A stretch of 64,000 bases of DNA from Nocardia brasiliensis (lineage in GTDB: Bacteria; Actinomycetota; Actinomycetes; Mycobacteriales; Mycobacteriaceae), in assembly GCF_011801125.1 (NCBI RefSeq), contig NZ_CP046171.1, forward strand, positions 310,001 through 374,000, read 5' to 3'. This document shows positions 492 to 52,570 of the stretch, one piece after another. Position 1 is the first letter of the stretch. Every line of letters begins with the position of its first letter. Below the pieces are notes generated by a model. The model did not search any database. It had not been told where the DNA came from and saw only the letters and a program-made list of their open reading frames with translations. The translations under genes were made by a program, and so were the position numbers.

Positions 492-3780
<3,289 letters not shown>

Positions 3781-3814
3781 CCCGCGGTGCGGCCGGTCCG
3801 CGGCCGAGGACGCA

Positions 3815-4597
3815 TCAGCTGAGCAGCGCGGGGGTTTCGCTGGGCGCGTAGGTCGGTTCGTGCTTCTTCAACCAGGCGATCACGCGGTAGGTGATCGGGA
3901 GCACGATGACCTCGGCGAGGGTCTTCCACAGGAAGCCGACGACAACGTAGTTGACGAACTGGCTCCACGAGTCGATGCCGATGGCGGTGGCGGCGATCGA
4001 GCAGAAGATCAGGGTGTCACCGAACTCGCCGACCACGGTGGAACCGATCAGCCGCGCCCACAGGTGCTTTTCCTTGGTCTTTTCCTTGATCAGGACCAGC
4101 GTCGCCGAGTTGAGCAGCTCGCCGACGAAGTAGCCGGCCAGGCCTGCGGCGACGAGCTGGGGCGTGGTGCCGATGACGGTGCGGAACGCGTCCTGGTTCT
4201 CGTAGAACCCGGCCGCGGGCAACTCGATCGCGATCTTGAAGCACACCACGGTCAGCAGCAGGACGCCGAAGCCGTAGTAGATGGCCCGGCGGGCCGACTT
4301 GAAGCCGTAGATCTCGCTCAGTACATCGCCGAGGATGTAGGCGAGGGGGAACAGGAACCAGGCGCCGTCGGTGCTGATCGGCAGCACCTCGATCGGGCCG
4401 ATCCGCACCGAATGGTCGGTGAAGAACTGCACGCCCTTGGTCGCGCAGATGTTGGAGATGATCAGCGTTGCCGTGAACAACGCCACGATCGGTGTGTAGT
4501 ACCCCCGCGCCGCCTGGGCAAAAGCCGCATGTTCCGGTGCGGGGCGCCCAGGTTCTGGGACTTCGGTTTCATTGAGCTGACTCACGGCTTCATCCAA
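3815..4597 (-). CDS. yhhQ: Queuosine precursor transporter (YhhQ/DUF165 family)
   Basis: This 260-residue integral membrane protein matches the YhhQ (DUF165) family, which imports preQ0/preQ1 or queuine-type bases for queuosine synthesis. An N-terminal tail of about 30 hydrophilic residues is followed by about six hydrophobic helices. A conserved-looking region (NICATKGVQFF), a polar stretch (ILGDVLSEIYGFKSARRAIYYGF) and a C-terminal FLWKTLAEVIVLPITY segment can be seen. It faces tgt tail to tail, and glutamyl-Q tRNA(Asp) synthetase lies 1.4 kb away. No de novo genes (queC, D, E, F) are in the window, so salvage is the economical reading. The longest start is TTG at 4597, and a GTG at 4585 is equally possible; neither has a strong ribosome site. 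Confidence 0.88.
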   Translation of the reverse strand: MDEAVSQLNETEVPEPGRPAPEHAAFAQAARGYYTPIVALFTATLIISNICATKGVQFFTDHSVRIGPIEVLPISTDGAWFLFPLAYILGDVLSEIYGFKSARRAIYYGFGVLLLTVVCFKIAIELPAAGFYENQDAFRTVIGTTPQLVAAGLAGYFVGELLNSATLVLIKEKTKEKHLWARLIGSTVVGEFGDTLIFCSIAATAIGIDSWSQFVNYVVVGFLWKTLAEVIVLPITYRVIAWLKKHEPTYAPSETPALLS

Positions 4598-4622
4598 CCA
4601 GGTTGTGGAATACCCTGTAGCA

Positions 4623-5147
4623 ATGACGAATCCCGGCGATTCCGACGAATGGTGGAAGCAGTACGGCGGTCAAGGCGTGTCGCCGGAATCCGGTGCGTCC
4701 AGCTCGGTTCCGCAGTACCCGAACGCTGAGCAACCCTCGGGATACCCGTCGGCGCCGCAGTACCCGCAGCAGCCGGCCCAGCCGATGACGCCCCCGCCGC
4801 AACCGCAGTACCAGCCGGGATATCAGCAGCCGCCCGCCCAGCCCTACGGGCAGCAGCCGAACTACGCCTACCAACCCGCCTATCAGCCGTACGGGATGGC
4901 CCAGCCGCAAGGCACCAACGGCATGGCGATCGGCGCCTTGATCTCCTCGCTGATCGGCTTCTTCACCTGCGGCATCGGCTCGATCGTCGGCATCATCCTC
5001 GGCGTCGTCTCGCTGGGACAGATCAAGCAGACCGGTCAGGAAGGCCGCGGCATGGCCCTGGCCGGCATCTGGATCGGCGTCGGCATGATCGTCCTCGGCC
5101 TTCTCTGGTTCCTCTTCGTGATCATCGCGGGCGCCTCCGGAGTCTGA
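4623..5147 (+). CDS. DUF4190-type membrane protein with Pro/Gln/Tyr-rich tail
   Basis: About 174 residues. The first 95 are low complexity, rich in Pro, Gln and Tyr (QPYGQQP-like runs). The C-terminal 75 hold two hydrophobic helices separated by a short loop (MAIGALISSLIGFFTCGIGSIVGIILGVVSLGQI, then ALAGIWIGVGMIVLGLLWFLFVIIAG). This is the usual DUF4190 layout in actinobacteria. A GTG at 4605 would add six residues, but the ATG at 4623 (MTNPGDSDEWW) looks more natural. It starts divergently, only about 25 bp from the YhhQ start. Function is unknown. The tail resembles that of the RDD protein downstream, suggesting a shared cytoplasmic scaffold or envelope role, which is inference only. Confidence 0.8.
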   Translation: MTNPGDSDEWWKQYGGQGVSPESGASSSVPQYPNAEQPSGYPSAPQYPQQPAQPMTPPPQPQYQPGYQQPPAQPYGQQPNYAYQPAYQPYGMAQPQGTNGMAIGALISSLIGFFTCGIGSIVGIILGVVSLGQIKQTGQEGRGMALAGIWIGVGMIVLGLLWFLFVIIAGASGV

Positions 5148-5159
5148 CCGGGAAAGCGT

Positions 5160-5192
5160 CAGGGGCGCACCCGAATATCGGGTGCGCCCCTG
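5160..5192. terminator. Bidirectional hairpin terminator
   Basis: A perfect 14-bp inverted repeat (arm CAGGGGCGCACCCG at 5160-5173, partner 5179-5192) encloses a 5-nt AATAT loop. It lies between two convergent genes ending at 5147 and 5217. There is no T-run, as is common in high-GC actinobacteria. Confidence 0.8.
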
Positions 5193-5216
5193 TTCGCGTT
5201 CTATGACAGGTCGGCG

Positions 5217-5906
5217 TCAGGCCTTGACGACCTGGGTGCCGCCGGCGAACTTGTCGTGCCAGCCCTGCTTGTTCGGGTCCTGCGAGATGGTGACCATGAT
5301 GTAGATGGCCAGCACCAGCGAGACCAGACCGCCGACGCACGGGATGATGTTCGCCGCGACGAACACGTTGCGCTTCAGCGAGGTGACCGGCTCGATCTTG
5401 GCCGCGCCGCCGGGCGCGAGCACCTTCAGGCCGAGCACCTTCTTGCCGAGCGTAGTGCCCTGCGAGGTCTCCATGCCGACGAAGTAGCCGAGCTGCACCA
5501 CGGTCCAGAGCAGGCCGAGGCCGATGGTCAGGCCCAGGCTGTTCTTCACCAGGAAGTAGATGATCAGGTACGGGATGTAGAGGATGAGGGCGTCGATGAC
5601 GCGCGCACCGATGCGGGTGCCGAGGTCGCCCGGCTGGCCGCCGTAGTTGAAGCCGCCCGGCTGCTGCGGGTACTGGCCGTAGGGATCCTGGGGCTGCTGC
5701 CCGTACTGGGGCGGCTGGCCGTATTGCGGCTGCTGGCCGTACTGCGGCGGCTGCTGGCCGTATTGGGGCTGCTGACCGTAGGGCTGACCGCCCTGCGGGA
5801 ACTGCTGACCGCCTTGGGGGTATTGCTGGCCGCCTTGCGGGTACGGCTGCCCATACGGCTGCCCGCCCTGCGGATACTGGTTGGGGTCGTACCCACCGCT
5901 TGTCAT
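5217..5906 (-). CDS. RDD family membrane protein with Gly/Gln/Tyr/Pro repeat tail
   Basis: This 229-residue protein begins with about 90 residues of short repeats built from YGQQP, PQYG and YPQGGQ units. It ends in an RDD domain with three to four hydrophobic segments. The domain's start is recognisable as LGTRIGARVIDALILYIPYLIIYF, then GLGLLWTVVQLGYFVGMETSQGTTLGKKVLGLKV. RDD proteins are integral membrane proteins of uncertain, possibly transport-related, function. The repeats are visible in the DNA at roughly 5645-5890 as reiterated ctgctggccgta-like units, which are prone to slippage. Its low-complexity tail parallels that of the convergent DUF4190 protein. Confidence 0.88.
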   Translation of the reverse strand: MTSGGYDPNQYPQGGQPYGQPYPQGGQQYPQGGQQFPQGGQPYGQQPQYGQQPPQYGQQPQYGQPPQYGQQPQDPYGQYPQQPGGFNYGGQPGDLGTRIGARVIDALILYIPYLIIYFLVKNSLGLTIGLGLLWTVVQLGYFVGMETSQGTTLGKKVLGLKVLAPGGAAKIEPVTSLKRNVFVAANIIPCVGGLVSLVLAIYIMVTISQDPNKQGWHDKFAGGTQVVKA

Positions 5907-5951
5907 AGTTGTGTCCTCGTCGAGTGATCAGTAGTTGGACGAATGCGTACG

Positions 5952-6869
5952 TTACGGACATCGACTGCGTTGCAACAACCCATTCCCGTCGAGTATCCAC
6001 GGTTCGCGCGGCAGATGTGCCGGGTCGAAACTGTCGAGGAGCTCCGCCGACGAGGTTGCCGCATAGCCCAGCGAGTCGGCGATCGCGGCCACTACCCGTT
6101 CGGGCGTGTTGCCGAGCGCCAGCTGGTCCGCGAGGGTCACCGCGCCGTCCCGCTTGGCCAGTCGCCTGCCCTCGGTGTTGAGCACGAGGGGAACGTGGAC
6201 GTAGCGCGGGACCGGTAGTTCGAGCAACGTCGCGAGGTAGGCCTGGCGCGGGGTGGAGGAGAGCAGGTCGTCGCCGCGCACCACCTGATCGACGCCCTGT
6301 TCCGCGTCGTCGACCACCACCGTGAGGTTGTAGGCGGGGATGCCGTCGCCGCGGCGCAGCACCACGTCGTCGACCGCGCCGCGATAGCGCCCGTGCAGTT
6401 CGTCGAAGATCTCGAACTCGCTGGTCGCCGCGCGCAGCCGCAGCGCGGCCGATCGTCCTTCGGCCACGAACGCGGCGCGCGCCCGGTCGGTCAGTGTGCG
6501 GCAGGTGCCGGGGTAGGCGCCCATCGGACCGTGCGGCGCCGTCGCGGCCTGCTGTATTTCCCTTCGCGTGCAGAAACATTCGTAGGTGCGCCCGGCCGCG
6601 GTGAGCCGGTCGATCGCGGCCTGATAGCGCGGGAGCCGCTCGGATTGCCGGACCACCGGCCCGTCCCAGTCCAGCCCGATCGCGATCAGATCGGCGAGCT
6701 GGCGTTCCTCTGCGCCGGGGCGCACCCGGTCCAGGTCGTCGATCCGGAGCAGGAATCTGCGGCCGGTCGACCGCGCGAAGGCCCAGGCGAGCAGGGCGGT
6801 GCGCAGATTGCCCACGTGCAGGTCCCCCGAGGGGCTCGGGGCGTACCGGCCCGCGCCCGGTTCAGGCAC
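5952..6869 (-). CDS. gluQ: Glutamyl-Q tRNA(Asp) synthetase
   Basis: This paralogue of the catalytic half of glutamyl-tRNA synthetase attaches glutamate to the queuosine base of tRNA(Asp). It is 305 residues and lacks the C-terminal anticodon-binding domain. The class I signatures are present: an HIGH-type motif (PSPSGDLHVGN, residues 11-21) and a KMSKS-type motif (GRRLAKRDGA, 235-244). The GluQ-RS zinc pattern C-x-C ... Y-x3-C is Cys98, Cys100, Tyr119, Cys123. It starts with GTG at 6869. Its presence near tgt and yhhQ means Q made by salvage would be further modified to glutamyl-queuosine. Truncated GluRS is the only alternative, and the zinc pattern and length argue against it. Confidence 0.93.
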   Translation of the reverse strand: MPEPGAGRYAPSPSGDLHVGNLRTALLAWAFARSTGRRFLLRIDDLDRVRPGAEERQLADLIAIGLDWDGPVVRQSERLPRYQAAIDRLTAAGRTYECFCTRREIQQAATAPHGPMGAYPGTCRTLTDRARAAFVAEGRSAALRLRAATSEFEIFDELHGRYRGAVDDVVLRRGDGIPAYNLTVVVDDAEQGVDQVVRGDDLLSSTPRQAYLATLLELPVPRYVHVPLVLNTEGRRLAKRDGAVTLADQLALGNTPERVVAAIADSLGYAATSSAELLDSFDPAHLPREPWILDGNGLLQRSRCP

Positions 6870-6917
6870 GAGCCCGATTCGTCGGGAACGTCGTGTGCAC
6901 GCAGGCCATCGTAGAGG

Positions 6918-7415
6918 TCAGCCGCACAGCCGCGGCTTCAGCTCCGCGGGGCCGATCGGTCGCCGCGTGTCGAGGGCGGCGAGCAGCGTTTCGGCGTAGC
7001 CGATGAGCCCGGAGCGGTCGATGCCGTAGGGCGCGTCGGCATCGCCATCGGGCCGGAACTCGCTCAGCCGGGTCGCCGCGCGGGTCAACAGTGTGCGCGC
7101 GCCCTTCGGATTACCGCGCTGGATGTGTGTGACACCGACAGCGAGCTGGGCGAGTGCCTGCCACAGCATCCGTTCGGCGAACGGCCCGTTCTTCCACGCG
7201 GCCTCTAATACCTCGTGCGCGTTGAATGCCAAACCGTCATCCAGCAGTTGCTGAGCGAAGGCGAGCGTTTGCTGCGGGGGTAATTCAAGATCATCGGGAA
7301 TTCGGGCAACTCCGACACTTCCGGAGGGTAGTGGGCGCCCAAGGCGGTCGCGCGGACGAGAGTTCCTGGCGCGACCTGCGTCGTCGCGATCGCGGTCAAC
7401 CATGCCTTCCATCAT
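6918..7415 (-). CDS. DUF309 domain protein
   Basis: About 165 residues. The C-terminal two thirds carry the DUF309 helical motif (FNAHEVLEAAWKNGP, then LWQALAQLAVGVTHIQRGNPKGARTLLTRAA), a small alpha-helical family of unknown function. The open frame runs back to 7613, but that stretch codes an unlikely segment in AT-richer DNA. The clustered ATGs at 7415, 7412 and 7403 are better starts, and 7415 has a GGCGGG sequence upstream. It is downstream of nothing on its strand and is separated from gluQ by 48 bp, so the two may be co-transcribed. No role in Q metabolism is established. Confidence 0.75.
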   Translation of the reverse strand: MMEGMVDRDRDDAGRARNSRPRDRLGRPLPSGSVGVARIPDDLELPPQQTLAFAQQLLDDGLAFNAHEVLEAAWKNGPFAERMLWQALAQLAVGVTHIQRGNPKGARTLLTRAATRLSEFRPDGDADAPYGIDRSGLIGYAETLLAALDTRRPIGPAELKPRLCG

Positions 7416-12792: not shown

Positions 12793-12915
12793 AACTGTGA
12801 GCCTGCTCGATCGGACAGGTCGCGGTCAAAGGGTTTCCTTCGAGGCGGGGATCACGGCAAATCCGCAGGTTACGATGGCTGGGCCGACGGTCGGGTCCAG
12901 GTGGGAGAGGACGCA

Positions 12916-15456
12916 ATGCTGCGCGCTGGTGAGATCTTCGCCGGGTACGTGGTCGAGCGGCGGCTGGGGCGGGGTGGGATGGGATCGGTGTACCTGGCGC
13001 GGCACCCGCGGTTGCCGCGGCGGGTCGCGTTGAAGTTGCTCAGTTCGAACCTGCACGCCGATCCGGAGATGCTGGCCCGCTTCGAGCGGGAGGCCGAGCT
13101 GGTCGCGCGACTGGACCACCCGAATATCGTGGCGGTCTACGACCGCGGCATCGAAGAGGACACCAGCTGGATCTCGATGCAGTACGTGGACGGCACCGAT
13201 GCGGGCGCGCTCGATCCGCGCACGCTGGCGCCGCGGCGAGCCGTCCACATCGTCGCCGAGACGGCGAAGGCGCTCGACTACGCGCACGCGGTCGGCGTCC
13301 TGCATCGTGACGTGAAGCCGGCGAACATCCTCCTGGCCCGCGCTACGGCGGCCCAGGAAGAACGAATCCTGTTGACGGACTTCGGTATCGCCCGCCTGCG
13401 CGACGAGTCCCAGCAGCTCACCCGCACCGGAATGTTCGCCGCCACCCTGGCGTACGCGTCGCCCGAGCAGCTGTCCGCCGCCACCGTCGACCATCGAGCC
13501 GACCAATACGCGCTGGCCTGCACGCTGTTCTGGCTGCTGACCGGTTCGGCGCCGTTCGCCGCGGACAACCCGGCGGGCTTGATCGCCGGCCATCTGCAAC
13601 AACCGCCGCCGCCCGTCGCCGACCGGCGGTCTGGGCTTCCGTCGGCGTTGAACGCGGTGCTGGCCAAGGCATTGGCGAAGGACCCCGACGAACGGTTCGG
13701 CTCCTGCACCGAATTCGCCGACACGGCCCGGCGCGCTCTGTCCGCCGCCGTGCCGGGTGCGGCCGCGGCACCGCCGACTACTCCGCAGGCGTGGGTGCCG
13801 CCTGCGGCATCGCCACCGCGACAGGTCGATTCGCCCGCGCGCGCCGCAGCTGTTGCCGGGCAGGCGGAAACCCGGGCTTCGGATCCTGCGGGTGAGGCAA
13901 CCCCTGGGTCTCGTGCGGAGCCGCGGCCACCGCTGTTCCACGGCGCGCGGTCTCCGGGCGCATACCCCGAAACCCGCCCCGCCGAGTGGCCCGCGACAGC
14001 GCCGGCGCACCCGCCCGCAGCCACACGTGCACCGGAAACCACATCCGCCGACGAGCTGCCGACCGGAAGTCTCCCGGTCGAGCGGCCAGGACCGCCGCCA
14101 GGCGATCGGGATGCGGCGTTCAACCGGACTTCCGCGTCGGATCAGGAACAACAACGCCGAGCCGAATCATCTGACGCATCAGCGCAAGACGAGCGCGAGG
14201 CCGCACCACCGGCGCCGAACCGGGCGCTGCGCCGGACCGGCATCGTCGGTTCCGCGCTTGTCATCGGGACCGCCGCGGTGCTGGGCGCCGTCTGGGCGTT
14301 CGGCGGATTCACCGGCGAGCCCACGGCGCCGCGCAGCGTCACCACGGCCATCGCGTGGGCCGGTGCGACCGCGCCGGGTACCGCCGGTGCACCGAGAACC
14401 GTTGCGCCATCGAGTCAGATCGATGCACAGGGCCGAGAACAGGCCAGGGCGACGGCGGCCGCCGACCCCGCCGGCGACGGCGCCGCGACCTGCGCACCGC
14501 TAACCATCGCGGCGCCCGGCCGATCCGGCGCGAACCGATACACCTCAGGTGCGGTCGAGTTGGCGGTCGACCGGTTCACGAAGGCCAACCCAGGTTGCGC
14601 GGTGACGGTGCGGGAGGTCGACACCGCGGCCGCGAGTGCCGCCGAACAGATTTCGCGGGACCAGTCCACGGTCGCTCTGGTCGGTCCGATGGTGTCCGAC
14701 GAAATCAGGGCTGCCGGCGCGGTTTTCGACGGCGCCGGGCTGCCGTTCCTGACGCCGTCGGCCACCGACCCGACACTGTCGGCCAACGGCTGGACCACCT
14801 TCTTTCGCGGTCTGGCCGCCGACGACGCGCAGGGCGCGGCGCTGGCGAAGTACCTGCTCGGCACCGCGCAGTTCCGCAAGATCTGTGTGGTCGAGGACAA
14901 GTCAGGGTACGGCAGGAGCCTGGCGGGCAGTGTCGTCGCGGGCATCGGCGCCGCGGCCACCTCGGCCTGCGCCGCGGAAATCGGCCGCGGCGAGCGCGAT
15001 TTCGCCGCTGTCGTGGCCGATATCGCCGCCGCGGCACCGGATGCGATCTTCTATTCGGGTCTGTACGAAGAAGCCGCCGCGCTGCTGCGACAGCTGCGCG
15101 GTAAGGGGGTCACGGCACCGTTCGTGTCCGCCGAAAGCACGGTGACCGCCGACTTCGTCGCCGCGGCAGGGGATGCGGCCGCTGGTGCGTTGATCTCCTG
15201 CTCGTGCGGACCGGTGCTCGGCGACTTCGCCGCGGAGTACCAGGCGCTCAACGGCGAACCGCCGGGTCCGGGCTCCACCGAGGCGTACGACCTGACCACG
15301 ATCGTCCTGTCCGGTATCGCCGCCGGCCACGTCACCCGCCCGAAACTCCTGGACTACCTGCACAACTACGAGGGCGCCGGCCTGGCGCGCGCCTATCGCT
15401 GGACCGCCGCGGGGGAACTGGCCGCCCCGCACATCTGGCTCTACAAGGTGGACTGA
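12916..15456 (+). CDS. Receptor Ser/Thr protein kinase with extracellular type-1 periplasmic-binding-protein domain
   Basis: About 846 residues. The N-terminal Hanks-type kinase (about 10-270) has the glycine loop LGRGGMGSVY, Lys40, HRD at 130-132 (HRDVKPANILL), DFG Asp155 and SPEQL, so it should be active. A long Pro/Ala-rich linker (about 280-435) leads to one transmembrane helix near 442-463 (GIVGSALVIGTAAVLGAVWAF). The exterior part from about 525 to the end resembles a Leu/Ile/Val-binding-protein fold: an entry strand PLTIAAPGRSGANRY, then VALVGPMVSDEIRAAGAVFDGAGLPFLTPSATDPTL, KICVVEDKSGYGRSLA, and a C-terminal AYDLTTIVLSGI. It probably senses a small extracellular ligand and phosphorylates cytosolic targets. 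The ATG at 12916 follows a good GGGAGAGG site; the open frame to 12172 is not used. Confidence 0.88.
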   Translation: MLRAGEIFAGYVVERRLGRGGMGSVYLARHPRLPRRVALKLLSSNLHADPEMLARFEREAELVARLDHPNIVAVYDRGIEEDTSWISMQYVDGTDAGALDPRTLAPRRAVHIVAETAKALDYAHAVGVLHRDVKPANILLARATAAQEERILLTDFGIARLRDESQQLTRTGMFAATLAYASPEQLSAATVDHRADQYALACTLFWLLTGSAPFAADNPAGLIAGHLQQPPPPVADRRSGLPSALNAVLAKALAKDPDERFGSCTEFADTARRALSAAVPGAAAAPPTTPQAWVPPAASPPRQVDSPARAAAVAGQAETRASDPAGEATPGSRAEPRPPLFHGARSPGAYPETRPAEWPATAPAHPPAATRAPETTSADELPTGSLPVERPGPPPGDRDAAFNRTSASDQEQQRRAESSDASAQDEREAAPPAPNRALRRTGIVGSALVIGTAAVLGAVWAFGGFTGEPTAPRSVTTAIAWAGATAPGTAGAPRTVAPSSQIDAQGREQARATAAADPAGDGAATCAPLTIAAPGRSGANRYTSGAVELAVDRFTKANPGCAVTVREVDTAAASAAEQISRDQSTVALVGPMVSDEIRAAGAVFDGAGLPFLTPSATDPTLSANGWTTFFRGLAADDAQGAALAKYLLGTAQFRKICVVEDKSGYGRSLAGSVVAGIGAAATSACAAEIGRGERDFAAVVADIAAAAPDAIFYSGLYEEAAALLRQLRGKGVTAPFVSAESTVTADFVAAAGDAAAGALISCSCGPVLGDFAAEYQALNGEPPGPGSTEAYDLTTIVLSGIAAGHVTRPKLLDYLHNYEGAGLARAYRWTAAGELAAPHIWLYKVD

Positions 15457-15754: not shown

Positions 15755-17041
15755 ATGGAGCTCACTGTTTTGACGACGTCGCAGAACCCCGCAGCCAACA
15801 CCACCGCCCGAACCGGCCTTTGCCCGGTGCCACACGGGTCGTCGATCGATACCGACGGGCCCCGGGTGCGGTTGCACACCGCCGAGTTCGCCGCCGATCC
15901 GCACCGGGCCTACGCCGACATGCGGGCAGGCTACGGCTCGCTGGTGCCGATCGAGGTGGCACCGGACGTCCCGGCAACGCTGGTGGTCGGATATCAGGCC
16001 GCACTGCGAATCCTCAACGACCCGGAGCACTTTCCGGCCGATCCGCGGACCTGGCAGCAGAACATTCCCGCGGACTCCCCGGTGAAGCCGATGATGGAGT
16101 GGTATCCGAACGCGCTGCGCAACAGCGGTGCGGCACATGCGCGCTATCGCCAGGCCTACACCGCGGCCATCGATGGAATCGACCTGCACGCACTGCATTC
16201 CACCGTTGAACGGATCGCGATCCCGCTGATCAACACCTTCTGCGCGGCGGGCTCCGCGGATCTGGTGACCCAGTACGCGTTTCCGCTCGTCTTCGAGGTG
16301 CTCAACCAAATGGTCGGCTGCTCGGCGGAATTGGGCCAGCGGGTAGCCACCGGCATGGCCGCGCTCTTCGACACGGTCAACGCCGCCCAGGGCATGCAGA
16401 TGCTCAGCGAGGCGCTGATGGAACTGATCCAGCTGCGCCGGGCCGAACCCGGTGACGACGTCACCTCGCGTTTGGCACACCACCGCGCCGAACTCGACGA
16501 TGTGGAGATGCTGTCCCAGCTGATCAGCTTCTACGGGGCGGGCATCGAACCGCAGCAGAACCTGATCACCAACACGCTGCTGCTGATGGTCACCGACGAT
16601 CGCTTCGGCGGCGATGTGCTCGGCGGCAGCATGTCCACCCGGGACGCGTTGGACGAGGTGCTGTTCAACGACCCGCCGATGGCGAACTTCTGCACGTCCT
16701 ACCCGCGCCAGCCGATCCTGATCGACAACAACTGGTTGCCCGCGCACCAGCCGGTGCTGATCAGCCTCGCGGGCTGCAACAACGATCCCGAGATCCGCGG
16801 CGGCGACCGCACCGGCAACCGTGCGCATCTGGCGTGGGGTGCCGGTCCGCATGCCTGCCCCGCGAAATCCGTTGCCTACCTGGTGGTCCAGGACGCCATC
16901 GATCAGTTGCTCGATGCGCTGCCCGAGCTGCGACTCGCCGTACCGGCCGCCGAGTTGACGTGGCGGCCAGGTCCTTTCCACCGTGCGCTGGCCTCGCTCC
17001 CGGTCGTCTTTCCCAAGTCCCCTCCGTTGAACATGATGTAA
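15755..17041 (+). CDS. Atypical cytochrome P450 lacking ExxR (CYP157-like)
   Basis: 428 residues. The haem-ligand loop is intact (LAWGAGPHACPAKS, Cys368) and the flanking J-K-L architecture is recognisable. Two otherwise near-universal elements are missing. The K-helix ExxR is EVLF (Glu301 to Phe304). The I-helix A/G-G-x-D/E-T-T is GAGIEPQQ (261-268), with no Thr. This is the reported hallmark of the Streptomyces CYP157 family, members of which sit beside CYP154 genes. The next gene begins 10 bp downstream behind an AAGGAG site. Whether it is a monooxygenase, peroxygenase or accessory protein is unknown. The start at 15755 is a plausible ATG; a TTG at 15770 is also possible. Confidence 0.85.
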   Translation: MELTVLTTSQNPAANTTARTGLCPVPHGSSIDTDGPRVRLHTAEFAADPHRAYADMRAGYGSLVPIEVAPDVPATLVVGYQAALRILNDPEHFPADPRTWQQNIPADSPVKPMMEWYPNALRNSGAAHARYRQAYTAAIDGIDLHALHSTVERIAIPLINTFCAAGSADLVTQYAFPLVFEVLNQMVGCSAELGQRVATGMAALFDTVNAAQGMQMLSEALMELIQLRRAEPGDDVTSRLAHHRAELDDVEMLSQLISFYGAGIEPQQNLITNTLLLMVTDDRFGGDVLGGSMSTRDALDEVLFNDPPMANFCTSYPRQPILIDNNWLPAHQPVLISLAGCNNDPEIRGGDRTGNRAHLAWGAGPHACPAKSVAYLVVQDAIDQLLDALPELRLAVPAAELTWRPGPFHRALASLPVVFPKSPPLNMM

Positions 17042-17051
17042 GGAGCCTCCG

Positions 17052-18269
17052 ATGGCGCATGAACCGATAGTCCTCGACACCACCGGTGCCGATATCCAGG
17101 GTGAGTGCGCGCGGATTCGCGCCACCGGGCCCGTGGCGCTGGTGGCGTTACCCGGTGGCGTGCCCGCGTGGTCGGTGACCGACGCCGTCCTGCTCAAGAC
17201 CCTCCTGGCCGACCCGCGCGTATCCAAAGACCCACGCCAGCACTGGTCTTCGTTCATCAACGGTGAGATCACCGAGGCATGGCCGCTGCTGCCGTGGGTG
17301 GCGGTGGACAACATGTTCACCGCCTACGGCAGCGAGCATCGGCGGCTGCGCAGGCTGGTCTCGCCCGCGTTCACCCACCGGCGCAGCACCGCCCTGCGTC
17401 CGCGCATCGAGGAGATCACCGCGCATCTGCTCGACGCGCTGGCCGCGACGCCCGCGGGCGAATCGGTGGACCTGCGTGCCCGTTTCGCCTACCCGGTGCC
17501 GATCAAGGTAATCACCGAGATGATGGGTGTGCCCGAGCATCTCGGACCCGATCTGCACCGGTGTGTAGACGGCTTCTTCGACTCCTCGTTCACCGCCGAG
17601 CAGGCGCAGGCCAACTACCTCGAAATGTACGGCCTGGTCAGCGAATTGGTCGCGTTCCGGCGGGCGCAGCCGGGTGACGACGTCACCAGCGTGCTGATCG
17701 CCACCCGCGACGAGGACGGTTCGCAGCTCGTCGAGAAGGAGCTCGTCGACACCCTGATGCTGGTGATCAACGCCGGGCACGAGACAACGGTGAACCTGCT
17801 CGACCAAGCGATATTCGCGTTGCTGACCCACCCCGACCAGCGCGCCGACGTGCTCGCGGGCCGGGTGCCCTGGTCGGACCTGGTCGAGGAGACATTGCGG
17901 TACGAGGCGCCGGTGGCGCACTTGCCGCTGCGCTACGCGGTCGAGGACATCGACCTCGGCGATATCCGTATTCCCAAGGGGGAGGCCATTCTCGCCTCCT
18001 ACGCGGGCGCTGGTCGCGACCCGAAGGTGCACGGCGCGAGCGCCGACACGTTCGACGTGCACCGGACAAACAAGGAGCACGTGTCCTTCGGGCACGGCGC
18101 CCACCACTGCATCGGTGCGCCGCTGGCGCGGCTCGAGGCGACGATCGCCTTGCCCGCACTGTTCGAGCGGTTCCCGAAGCTCAGGTTCGCCGTCGACCCG
18201 GCCGAGCTCGCGCCGATGGGCAGTTTTATCTCCAACGGGCACCGCACGCTGCCGGTGTACCTGACGTAG
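17052..18269 (+). CDS. Cytochrome P450 (CYP154-like)
   Basis: 405 residues with all P450 hallmarks: I-helix AGHETT, K-helix ETLR, the PERF-region equivalent (ADTFDVHR) and the haem loop FGHGAHHCIGAPLAR. This is a soluble class I bacterial P450 needing ferredoxin and ferredoxin reductase, neither of which is nearby. The overall pattern (VDNMFTAYGSEHRRLRRLVSPAFT; VINAGHETTVNLL) resembles CYP154/CYP105-type hydroxylases of steroids, macrolides and terpenoids. It is translationally linked to the preceding ExxR-less P450, matching the CYP157-CYP154 pairing known from Streptomyces. Substrate not predictable. Confidence 0.92.
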   Translation: MAHEPIVLDTTGADIQGECARIRATGPVALVALPGGVPAWSVTDAVLLKTLLADPRVSKDPRQHWSSFINGEITEAWPLLPWVAVDNMFTAYGSEHRRLRRLVSPAFTHRRSTALRPRIEEITAHLLDALAATPAGESVDLRARFAYPVPIKVITEMMGVPEHLGPDLHRCVDGFFDSSFTAEQAQANYLEMYGLVSELVAFRRAQPGDDVTSVLIATRDEDGSQLVEKELVDTLMLVINAGHETTVNLLDQAIFALLTHPDQRADVLAGRVPWSDLVEETLRYEAPVAHLPLRYAVEDIDLGDIRIPKGEAILASYAGAGRDPKVHGASADTFDVHRTNKEHVSFGHGAHHCIGAPLARLEATIALPALFERFPKLRFAVDPAELAPMGSFISNGHRTLPVYLT

Positions 18270-49012: not shown

Positions 49013-52000
49013 ATGAATCCACGGACGCGTTCAGCAGAGGTCGGTCCCGACTCGACCCCTGCCGACTCGGATACCCAGCGGCACCCGCTGCTCGGCATCG
49101 CCGACGAGCTGGAGGCGATGGGCCTGTCCGAGGCGAAGGAGATCGGCCGGGGCGGCTTCGGCGTGGTGTACCGCTGTGTCCAGCGGGCGCTCGAACGCGT
49201 CGTCGCGGTGAAGGTGCTCTCCTCGGAGATCGAGGTGGAAAGCCGCGAGCGATTCCTGCGCGAGGAACAGGCCATGGGCCGGTTGTCCGGCCACCCGAAC
49301 ATCGTCGACATCCTGCAGGTCGATGTGACGCCGAGCGGTCTGCCGTTCATCGTGATGCCCTACTGCACCCGCGGTTCGCTGGAACAGGTCATCCGCGATC
49401 AGGGCCCGCTCACCTGGGCCGATTCGCTGCGCGCCGGGGTGAAACTCGCGGGCGCGATCGAGAGCGCGCACCGGGCCCAGATCCTGCACCGTGACGTGAA
49501 ACCGGCCAACGTGCTGCTCAGCGGTTACGGCGAACCGCAGCTGACCGACTTCGGGATCGCCCGCATCCCCGGCGGCTTCCAGACCTCCAGCAGCATGATC
49601 ACGGGCTCGCCCGCGTTCACCGCGCCGGAGGTGCTCAAGGGCGACGATCCGACCATCCGTTCCGACGTCTACGGACTGGGCGCGACGCTGTTCGCGTTGC
49701 TGACCGGGCATGCGGCGTTCGAGCGGCAGGCGGGGGAGAAGGTGGTCGCGCAGTTCCTGCGGATCACCACTCAGCCCGTGCCCGATCTGCGGGAGCACGA
49801 CATTCCCGCCGATGTGGCCGAGGTGATCCAGCACGCGATGGCGACCGATCCCGATGATCGGCCGACGACGGCCTACGACTTCGGGCAGCTGCTGCGGTCG
49901 GTGCAGCGCGACCACGACCATATGCCCGACGAGATGGCGTTGCTGGAGACCGTCGCCGCGCCGGAACCGATCGATCGCGACGGGGAGACCTCGTCGTCGC
50001 GTCCCGCGGTGACCGCCCGGCGCAGTTGGCCGTTGACGTTGCGGCCCGCGTTGTCCCAGCACACCGGCGGACGGCAGCAGGGCGCGGGGGCGACCCTGCC
50101 GCCCACCGCAACGACCAAATTCCGGCCGCCGACCCCGGCCAGGGAACCCGTGGCCCGGCCACGGCTGCTGGACGTGTTGCGGGCCGGTGGCAGGCGCAGG
50201 CTTGCGGTGATTCACGCGCCGGCGGGCTTCGGCAAGAGCACGGTGGCGGCGCAGTGGCGCAGCGACCTGACCGAGCGTGGCATCCAGGTCGCCTGGCTCG
50301 GGGTCGACCAGGGCGACGACAACGAGATCTGGTTTCTGGCCCATCTGATCCAGGCGATCCGCCGGGTCCGTCCGGATCTGGGCAACGGACTGGACCAGGT
50401 ACTGGAGGAAAGACCAGCCGACGCGGCCGCTTTCGTGATCTCCACGCTCATCGACGAGATCCATGCCGGCGGCAGCACTCTCGTGGTGGTGGTGGACGAC
50501 TGGCATCGGGTCACCGACGCGGGCGCGCATCGGGCGATGGACACGTTGCTGGCCAACGGGTGTCACCATCTGCGCTTCGTAGTGACCAGCCGGGAGCAGT
50601 CGGGCCTGCCGACCAGCCGGATGCGGGTGCACGACGAGCTGGTCGAGATCGGTTCCGCCGCACTGCGTCTGACCGCCGAGGAGACCAAGGAGATCCTGGT
50701 GCGGCGGCACGGGTTCGTGCTCACCGACGGCCAGGTCGCCGAGATCCACCGGGCCACCGACGGCTGGCCCGCCGCCATTCAGCTGGTCAGCCTGTCGCTG
50801 CGCGGCAAGACCGACCCGGCGCAGCTGCTCGCGCAGTTGTCCGAGGGCAATCACGGCATTCGCGAGTACCTCGCCGAAAACGTCCTGGACACACTGGAAC
50901 CCAGGATGCTCGACTTCCTGATGTCGATCGCGGTGACCGAGCGGGTGTGCGCCTCGCTGGCCGCGGCGCTGTCCGACGACGCCGATGCCGGACAACTGCT
51001 GGAGCAGGCCGAGCAGCGGGAGCTGTTCGTGCGCCGGATCGAGCACGACCCGGAATGGTTCCGGATGCAGCCGTTGTTCGCCGAGCATCTGCGGGCCCGA
51101 TTGGAACGCGCGCAGCCGGGGAAGTCGAAATCCCTGCACCGCAAGGCCTCTCGCTGGTACGCCGAGCATCAGCTGCTGCGCAAGTCGGTGGATCACGCGC
51201 TCGCGGCCACCGATCTCAAGATGGCGCTCGACCTGCTCGAGGTCGGCGGCATGGACCTGATCGACCGCTCCCGCCTGGCGACGCTGCTCGGCACGGTCTC
51301 GAAACTGCCGATGCAGCAGGTGGCTTCGCGGTCCAAGCTGTTGATGGCGGTGGCGCGGGCGAATGTGAACCTGCAGCAGTCCGGCGCGGCGCGCACCGCG
51401 CTGGGACGACTGTCGAATCTGCTCGCGCGCGGCGGGTCCACCGATGAGGACCTCACGCAGCAGCGCTGCCAGGCCGCCGTGCTCGGCGCCGCGGATCAGA
51501 TCGCGAGGGACCGCACCGAGGGGGTGCTCGATCGGGTCGCGGACTGCCTGCAGACCCCGGAGAACCTGCCCGCCTGGACGGTGTCGACCGCGGCGAATCT
51601 GACCTCGTTCGTGCGGTTGTGCGAGTTCGACTTCGACGGCGCGCGGGAGATCCAGGACTGGGCCGCGCCCTACCACGCGCGGTCCAAGGATCCGCTCGGC
51701 GCCGTGTTCGGGATGTGCGGGCGCGGCGCGGCCGCCTACGAGCAGCTCGACATCGCCACCGCGACACAGTGTTTCCAGCAGGCGTGGGAGCTGGCCAAGA
51801 CCCGCTCCGGCCCGCGCTCGCACGCGGTGCGGGTCGCGGCGGCGCTGCTCGGCGAAGTGAACTATCGCCGTGGCGATCTGGACGCCGCCGACCGGCTGCT
51901 CGACGAGAGCCATCAGCTGGTCGCCCGGGTCGGCCCGGTGGACTTTCTCATCGCGACCTTCGTGATCGGTGCGCGGGTCAAAGCGGTGCGTGGCGATCTG

Positions 52001-52570
52001 TTCACGGCCGCGGCCCGGCTCGACGAGGGCGAGCGCATCGCCGCCGACAACCGGCTGACCCGGCTCGGTGCGCATATCCGCGCCGAGCGCATGCGGCTCG
52101 GTCTCGGGCCGGAGCGCGACGACGGTTCGTCCGCGCAAGCTCCGGTGGGCGCGCTGCATCCGGGGCATCGGATGACCGGTGCCGCCGTGCTCGCGGCCGA
52201 GGCCGAGGAGATCGCGGCCATCCGCACGCTGCTGGCCGAGGGCAGCCTGGGCTCGGACGATCGTGCGGTACGCCGAGCGCGCGCCCTGCACGCCCGCATG
52301 GCCGACAAGCACCGCCCCCGTGCGGAATTGGACGCCTCGCTGCTGCTCGCCGAATGCCTGGCCGCGTCCGGCTGGGTCGGCGAGGCGACCGGCCTGCTGC
52401 TGCCCGCGGCCGCGACCTGCGCCGAACTGGGTTGGACCAGGCCGCTGCTCGACGCGGGCCCCGGCGTCGTCGCCATCCTCGGGGTGCTACGCGCCGAAAT
52501 GCCCTCCGCCGCGGCGCATACCGGAGACATAGAACTGCCCGCCCTGTTCCTGGACGAACTCCTGGACTAG
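49013..52570 (+). CDS. pknK: Serine/threonine protein kinase fused to a MalT/LuxR-type ATPase (PknK-like)
   Basis: 1185 residues. The kinase domain (about 42-300) has IGRGGFGVVYR, Lys67, HRDVKPANVLL (Asp161) and DFG Asp179, so it should be active. A STAND-type ATPase domain follows from about residue 385 (Walker A APAGFGKST near 402; Walker B VVVVDDWHRV), then TPR-like helical repeats to the C-terminus. No C-terminal LuxR HTH is visible. The order and individual motifs match M. tuberculosis PknK (Rv3080c, about 1110 residues), which links kinase signalling to transcription factors and growth control. The ATG follows GAGGTGG. Confidence 0.93.
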   Translation: MNPRTRSAEVGPDSTPADSDTQRHPLLGIADELEAMGLSEAKEIGRGGFGVVYRCVQRALERVVAVKVLSSEIEVESRERFLREEQAMGRLSGHPNIVDILQVDVTPSGLPFIVMPYCTRGSLEQVIRDQGPLTWADSLRAGVKLAGAIESAHRAQILHRDVKPANVLLSGYGEPQLTDFGIARIPGGFQTSSSMITGSPAFTAPEVLKGDDPTIRSDVYGLGATLFALLTGHAAFERQAGEKVVAQFLRITTQPVPDLREHDIPADVAEVIQHAMATDPDDRPTTAYDFGQLLRSVQRDHDHMPDEMALLETVAAPEPIDRDGETSSSRPAVTARRSWPLTLRPALSQHTGGRQQGAGATLPPTATTKFRPPTPAREPVARPRLLDVLRAGGRRRLAVIHAPAGFGKSTVAAQWRSDLTERGIQVAWLGVDQGDDNEIWFLAHLIQAIRRVRPDLGNGLDQVLEERPADAAAFVISTLIDEIHAGGSTLVVVVDDWHRVTDAGAHRAMDTLLANGCHHLRFVVTSREQSGLPTSRMRVHDELVEIGSAALRLTAEETKEILVRRHGFVLTDGQVAEIHRATDGWPAAIQLVSLSLRGKTDPAQLLAQLSEGNHGIREYLAENVLDTLEPRMLDFLMSIAVTERVCASLAAALSDDADAGQLLEQAEQRELFVRRIEHDPEWFRMQPLFAEHLRARLERAQPGKSKSLHRKASRWYAEHQLLRKSVDHALAATDLKMALDLLEVGGMDLIDRSRLATLLGTVSKLPMQQVASRSKLLMAVARANVNLQQSGAARTALGRLSNLLARGGSTDEDLTQQRCQAAVLGAADQIARDRTEGVLDRVADCLQTPENLPAWTVSTAANLTSFVRLCEFDFDGAREIQDWAAPYHARSKDPLGAVFGMCGRGAAAYEQLDIATATQCFQQAWELAKTRSGPRSHAVRVAAALLGEVNYRRGDLDAADRLLDESHQLVARVGPVDFLIATFVIGARVKAVRGDLFTAAARLDEGERIAADNRLTRLGAHIRAERMRLGLGPERDDGSSAQAPVGALHPGHRMTGAAVLAAEAEEIAAIRTLLAEGSLGSDDRAVRRARALHARMADKHRPRAELDASLLLAECLAASGWVGEATGLLLPAAATCAELGWTRPLLDAGPGVVAILGVLRAEMPSAAAHTGDIELPALFLDELLD

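Follow-up and report, generated by a model that had tools for sequence, protein, structure and literature searches.

The window, the whole stretch of 64,000 nucleotides of Nocardia brasiliensis DNA analysed here, carries on its + strand an open reading frame at 12916-15456 whose translation (846 residues) places a kinase and a binding-protein domain in one chain. The features of the locus are listed below, with LIVBP residue numbers given for pocket equivalents.

12903..12910, + strand: Shine-Dalgarno-like GGGAGAGG 5' of the ATG at 12916, spotted by eye and unscored
12916..13752, + strand: Hanks Ser/Thr kinase domain, residues 1-279, PknF/PknI/PknB-like, catalytic residues intact
13753..14235, + strand: Pro/Ala-rich juxtamembrane linker, residues 280-440, predicted disordered (pLDDT mostly <50), fast-evolving
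14242..14301, + strand: single transmembrane helix, residues 443-462, predicted from hydropathy
14410..14490, + strand: segment matching LivJ, residues 499-525, corresponding to the mature N-terminal part past the lipobox (LivJ translation, alignment)
14491..15453, + strand: type-1 (Leu/Ile/Val-type) solute-binding domain, residues 526-846 (Pfam, PDB sequence match, AlphaFold2, Foldseek, VIA)
14512..14550, + strand: shortened beta1-alphaA loop, residues 533-545, whose LIVBP counterpart should bear Tyr18 (C526-to-G546 spacing)
14695..14697, + strand: Ser594, equivalent of the LIVBP ligand contact Ser79 (alignment; PMC13103812)
14764..14766, + strand: Thr617, equivalent of the LIVBP ligand contact Thr102 (alignment; PMC13103812)
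14908..14910, + strand: Tyr665, equivalent of Tyr150 (alignment; PMC13103812)
15061..15063, + strand: Leu716, at the position of Tyr202 in LIVBP and in 52 of 52 standalone relatives (alignment; PMC13103812)
15133..15135, + strand: Glu740, equivalent of Glu226; Asp in 51 of 52 standalone relatives (alignment; PMC13103812)

The kinase half matches PknB (E 1.9e-57), retains the catalytic Lys, the HRD Asp and the DFG Asp, and has a complete kinase fold as judged by Pfam, the sequence, the AlphaFold2 model and VIA, with an activation loop of low confidence in the model. A hydropathy window of at least 1.6 lies between the two domains in 39 of 40 sequences, the window protein among them, and the exterior half scores above the Peripla_BP_6 profile cut-off and is predicted to adopt a two-lobed type-1 fold. 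The first-pass annotation had described just this arrangement, a catalytically intact-looking kinase linked by a single helix to a domain of the Peripla_BP_6/type-1 kind, and Pfam, AlphaFold2 and VIA bear it out. Structure prediction of the exterior domain, which it had recommended, recovered the type-1 fold (AlphaFold2, Foldseek and VIA, the VIA comparison speaking for listed families and leaving unlisted ones possible), and the search that it had suggested for the same architecture found relatives with identical Pfam domains among the best 8000 candidates scored. With its predicted single transmembrane helix and exterior domain, the protein is, by predicted layout, a Hanks-type receptor Ser/Thr kinase. 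A PASTA domain or another established sensor was considered and rejected: the exterior is Peripla_BP_6 with no PASTA match in Pfam, and the score of 278 from the NCBIfam PASTA-kinase model falls below its cut-off of 450.

The gene also bears the marks of selection. In comparisons with three of four close relatives (L045 was left out), dN/dS was 0.21-0.23 for the sensor, 0.14-0.15 for the kinase and 0.35-0.44 for the linker, and amino acid identity of the linker to three close relatives was 43-48%. On these estimates the sensor diverges faster than the kinase and is kept under purifying selection. An artefactual or chance reading frame is ruled out by sensor relatives at 47-81% identity, by a dN/dS of about 0.2 and by the fold match, and the kinase-sensor fusion is confirmed.

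The absence of transporter genes beside the fusion, part of the original description, holds for the four flanking ORFs searched against Pfam: one is a methyltransferase, one a GNAT acetyltransferase and one a P450, and the fourth had no match. An ORF that we take to be cytochrome b, the methyltransferase, the GNAT gene, the fusion and a pair of P450-type genes occur as a conserved group in two further Nocardia (loci L041 and L042). This grouping gave no functional link, so an operon function drawn from synteny was rejected. The P450-type pair lies directly 3' of the fusion (window 15755-18269, + strand) and is 85-94% identical in L041 and L042, as against only about 58-74% for the kinase fusion in the same loci; the first P450-type gene downstream had no Pfam match at 1e-3. 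L041 itself holds two kinase-SBP fusions about 8 kb apart, one on either side of its P450 pair, and in L092 two such fusions stand in tandem (2359-4764 and 4768-7056). Elsewhere in the window, a second Ser/Thr kinase gene (49013-52570, + strand, ORF of 1185 residues, Pkinase match) runs on into an apparent ATPase and a helical-repeat region, and is presumably PknK-like.

The host genome, a single contig of 7.95 Mb, contains five Peripla_BP_6 matches, and the sensor's nearest relative among its own proteins is a standalone SBP encoded at 2,656,446-2,657,516, with 50% identity in the genome search and 48% by blastp. This protein has a lipoprotein-type start with a lipobox-like LTGC (by eye); its gene is followed by a pair each of BPD_transp_2 permease and ABC ATPase genes (Pfam), and upstream lies a gene for an ANTAR-domain response regulator. 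The order livJ-H-M-G-F is that of a LIV ABC operon, 2.3 Mb from the fusion. The sensor and LivJ align from a point past the lipobox of LivJ (SQIDAQGREQARA..ADPAGDGAATC versus QVDTNGKEVAKV..ADPAGDGKATC; in another excerpt, SQIDAQGREQARA..ADPAGDGAATCAP versus QVDTNGKEVAKV..ADPAGDGKATCAP), and in the fusion the kinase and transmembrane helix stand where a signal peptide would be. Because homology starts just past the lipobox, the simplest reading is that the mature LivJ was copied whole, with the kinase's membrane helix replacing the lipid anchor. The earlier proposal that a transporter-type receptor serves here as a kinase sensor is thus strengthened by close kinship to the LIV transporter's own binding protein, in identity, operon and tree.

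For that tree, a quick IQ-TREE search with SH-aLRT and no bootstrap was run on 115 of 118 rows (all but L040, P0038 and P0036), with each set of identical sensors represented by a single entry and near-copies retained. Set A1 comprised 39 of the 42 proteins P0001-P0042 (P0033, P0036 and P0038 were left out). The 45 distinct kinase-linked rows of this family group together in a single branch (SH-aLRT 98), next to the standalone SBPs of Nocardiaceae. Of these 45, L074 belongs to a different genus within the family, and the rest, bar P0002 and P0026, are from Nocardia genomes or records. Six other sampled kinase-SBP fusions branch elsewhere, namely P0037 and P0039-P0042 from Streptomyces and L088 from another family of the order, with long branches (P0037, L074 and others) that make exact placements unsure. 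The kinase label needs four changes on the tree, and strongly supported branches force at least two, which argues that the same kinase-SBP combination probably arose more than once.

The receptor is conserved across some Nocardia. A match at E <=1e-40 occurs in 107 of 118 Nocardia genomes, and 19 of the 118 were confirmed to encode kinase and sensor within a single frame (G000, G008, G017, G019, G022, G041, G043, G063, G065, G074, G075, G081, G085, G087, G088, G092, G095, G109 and G127). A second copy in G088 (L091) has its kinase matched only in part. Copies in G040 (L095) and G044 (L098) have kinase and sensor in different frames, either broken copies or sequencing errors; L095 carries a second kinase match nearby, and a further piece from G040 (L099) stops at a contig end with no kinase seen. 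The remaining 97 genomes had no fused frame among the matches listed, which were mostly open frames of about 400-490 residues, and two loci checked from these genomes (L103 and L104) gave no kinase match. The frame-split copies in G040 and G044, together with the 97 genomes with no fused frame listed, suggest that the receptor is probably dispensable. Standalone relatives keep different company: a livH relative adjoins 51 of 52 rows, with an ANTAR gene in the fetched stretch of 49 of 52. Beside fused loci no livH was found in 16 genomes (cut-off 38% identity, flanks of about 1.5 kb or more, loci L093-L104 left out of the scan). Weak ABC-ATPase matches of 28-32% lie no more than a few kb from two of the fused loci, L074 and L092.

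In the available text on LIVBP, hydrogen-bond contacts to the ligand are given as Ser79, Ala100, Thr102, Tyr202 and Glu226, and packing contacts as Tyr18, Leu77, Leu78, Tyr150 and Phe276 (PMC13103812). In the HMMER alignment the window protein has Ser594, Ser615, Thr617, Leu716, Glu740 and Tyr665 at positions 79, 100, 102, 202, 226 and 150. In the set of 45 kinase sensors, counted by alignment and many of them closely related to one another, position 79 is Ser in 42, position 102 Thr in 40 and Ser in four, position 150 Tyr in 37 and Phe in seven, and position 226 Glu in 34 and Asp in 11; Asp792, Tyr791, Glu789 and Glu/Asp740 are retained in all 45. Position 202 is far more varied (Tyr in 17, Phe in 13, others in 15). 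The 52 standalone relatives are nearly uniform, with Ser79, Thr102, Tyr150 and Tyr202 in all 52 and Asp226 in 51. Ten rows, the window protein among them, are N. brasiliensis-like; their residue at 202 is Leu (six), Gln (two) or Arg (two). The C526-to-G546 spacing in all ten is 17-20 residues, compared with 25-26 in 42 of 52 standalone rows, the other ten having short spacing from a later alignment start and a loop that looks intact on reading. Of the 45 kinase sensors, 20 have a short Tyr18 loop and 25 one of at least 25 residues.

The first-pass annotation had called the sensor branched-chain-amino-acid-type: as a statement of family this stands, given the Peripla_BP_6/type-1 domain and the kinship to LivJ, but loss of the Tyr202 contact and shortening of the Tyr18 loop make a classical branched-chain ligand doubtful for the N. 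brasiliensis-like clade, the window protein included. Since the residues that hold the head group are mostly kept, and one head-group contact and the side-chain loop have changed, we read the pocket as one with a retuned ligand, which appears likelier than lost binding.

Could the protein nonetheless be a classical amino-acid receptor, much as the first-pass annotation had proposed, whose exterior binds Leu, Ile or Val, as the ancestral transporter protein presumably did, and whose kinase reports nutrient supply without import? Its 50% identity to the binding protein of the LIV operon and its equivalents of Ser79, Thr102, Tyr150 and Glu226 would fit, as would the 30 of 45 kinase sensors with Tyr or Phe at 202 and the 25 with a long loop; against this, Tyr202 is lost and the Tyr18 loop shortened in ten of ten rows of the clade, both being reported LIVBP contacts (PMC13103812), and we consider this reading unlikely. 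Alternatively, the LivJ-like domain could dock LivHM or another membrane partner, with the kinase monitoring or phosphorylating the transporter and a ligand-free cleft under relaxed constraint. The sensor is indeed related to a transporter's docking subunit, and parts of the clade show relaxed cleft residues in a domain that is still under purifying selection; however, Ser79 (42 of 45), Thr102 (40 of 45) and Glu/Asp226 (45 of 45) are kept above expectation for a free cleft, leaving docking without sensing a distinctly improbable account. Finally, a fast-evolving, near-dispensable accessory kinase under little ligand regulation, with the sensor as an anchor or stability domain, would suit the 19 verified in-frame genomes, the two more with split frames and a sensor that evolves faster than the kinase, but is hardly credible beside a sensor dN/dS of about 0.2 and residues 792, 791, 789 and 740 of invariant class in 45 of 45.

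The reading that we favor, and think reasonably likely to be right, is that the fusion encodes a Ser/Thr kinase acting as a membrane receptor, with a sensor copied from a Nocardiaceae LivJ, and that this receptor probably senses an amino-acid-like, non-branched-chain ligand. Homology and the tree suggest that a copy of LivJ, stripped of signal peptide and lipid anchor, became fused to the transmembrane helix of a kinase of the PknF/PknI/PknB-like kind. On the pattern of PASTA kinases and of receptors with PBP-type domains, a small exterior molecule would most likely close the two-lobed domain, and this closure, or pairing of the exterior domains, would bring the cytoplasmic kinases together; the paired kinases would then autophosphorylate and go on to phosphorylate their targets. 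Activation by ligand-induced pairing is described for PASTA kinases in the available text of PMC12189002. The ligand is probably zwitterionic and amino-acid-like, held through the equivalents of Ser79, Thr102 and Glu226, and in the N. brasiliensis-like clade it is probably no plain branched-chain amino acid. If the receptor reading is true, the cell may sense an exterior compound without importing it, and the fusion would show a route from transport protein to signalling receptor. What stimulates bacterial Ser/Thr kinases is named an outstanding question in the accessible part of PMC6069109. With a well-understood fold, a cleft already known and LivJ from the same genome as a natural control, the ligand question here becomes a direct binding experiment.

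Related sensors carry other partners. Among the matches listed, 17 long-frame loci outside the genus were picked by hand from across the order: two have a kinase on the sensor's frame (L074 and L088), six are Hsp70-like, three have a Gln-rich tail and six have neither. In other families of the same order an Hsp70-like ATPase, a hydrophobic stretch (by eye) and a Peripla_BP_6-type domain occur together, an unusual receptor-like architecture. Pfam found HSP70 and Peripla_BP_6 in three of three such loci tested (L037 4391-6790, L079 960-3737 and L080 1962-4385). L038, L082, L084, L085 and L087 were called Hsp70-like from a GGTFD-type motif, which we take to be that of Hsp70. L039, L081, L083 and L086, which form one branch in the tree, combine a Gln/Tyr/Pro-rich tail, a hydrophobic stretch and an SBP-type exterior, Peripla_BP_6 being confirmed by Pfam in L083. 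In L040 (2705-5335), Peripla_BP_6 is followed by a weak match to a neurotransmitter-gated channel membrane region (E 7.9e-06, below the cut-off). Tentatively, and short of even confidence, we suggest that LIV-type proteins of Actinomycetota may act as plug-in exterior sensors, re-anchored by a transmembrane helix to kinases more than once and elsewhere in the order to an Hsp70-like ATPase or Gln-rich tails, with the Nocardia kinase branch having been retuned.

Several known systems resemble the fusion in part. PASTA receptor kinases (PknB, PrkC and StkP) have a cytoplasmic Hanks kinase, a single transmembrane helix and a C-terminal exterior sensor; the fusion shares this layout and itself has no PASTA domain in Pfam. 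In NCBI records the label 'bifunctional serine/threonine-protein kinase/ABC transporter substrate-binding protein' is given to many proteins of this kind; among the best 8000 candidates scored, relatives in Nocardia (47-81% sensor identity) and proteins in Streptomyces carry identical Pfam domains, and the nearest named fused relatives are from Nocardia. The architecture is already named in those records and hence is not unseen. The five Streptomyces members have sensors only 27-28% identical and are placed elsewhere in the tree, and four of the five lack equivalents of Ser79, Thr102, Tyr202 and Glu226. LivJ and LivK have fold, sequence and part of the pocket in common with the fusion's sensor, but they carry a lipoprotein signal, whereas the fusion has a kinase and a transmembrane helix and no adjoining livH (16 genomes). 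Type-1 PBP domains also occur in receptors, and the available text of PMC549065 describes PBP-I-fused bacterial ligand-gated channels and, in animals, metabotropic glutamate, taste and NMDA-type receptors. As in the fusion, the type-1 domain lies outside (PMC549065), but the output domain is another one, and the fusion's sensor is C-terminal to its membrane helix.

The nearest functional parallel is GlnH-GlnX-PknG of Mycobacterium and Corynebacterium, where the proposal is that GlnH, a free-standing SBP, acts through GlnX to control PknG (PMC6069109); in the available text the authors name a sensor role of SBPs for Ser/Thr kinases as new. What the two would share is an exterior SBP that, as proposed for GlnH (PMC6069109), reports on amino acids to a Ser/Thr kinase in the cytoplasm. 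That system is made of three proteins, whereas the Nocardia fusion is one chain with a PknF/PknI/PknB-like kinase; by analogy, it would be a single-chain version of GlnH-GlnX-PknG. The host genome (G000) also encodes three PknG_TPR-domain proteins (at 7436696, 1020709 and 4660327), away from the fusion. A search of the open-licence literature, itself weak evidence of absence, found no study of a directly fused SBP-Ser/Thr kinase. What is new here is that the sensor can be tied to the transporter's own binding protein, that its pocket has changed and that related sensors are used more widely, with different domains on the inside.
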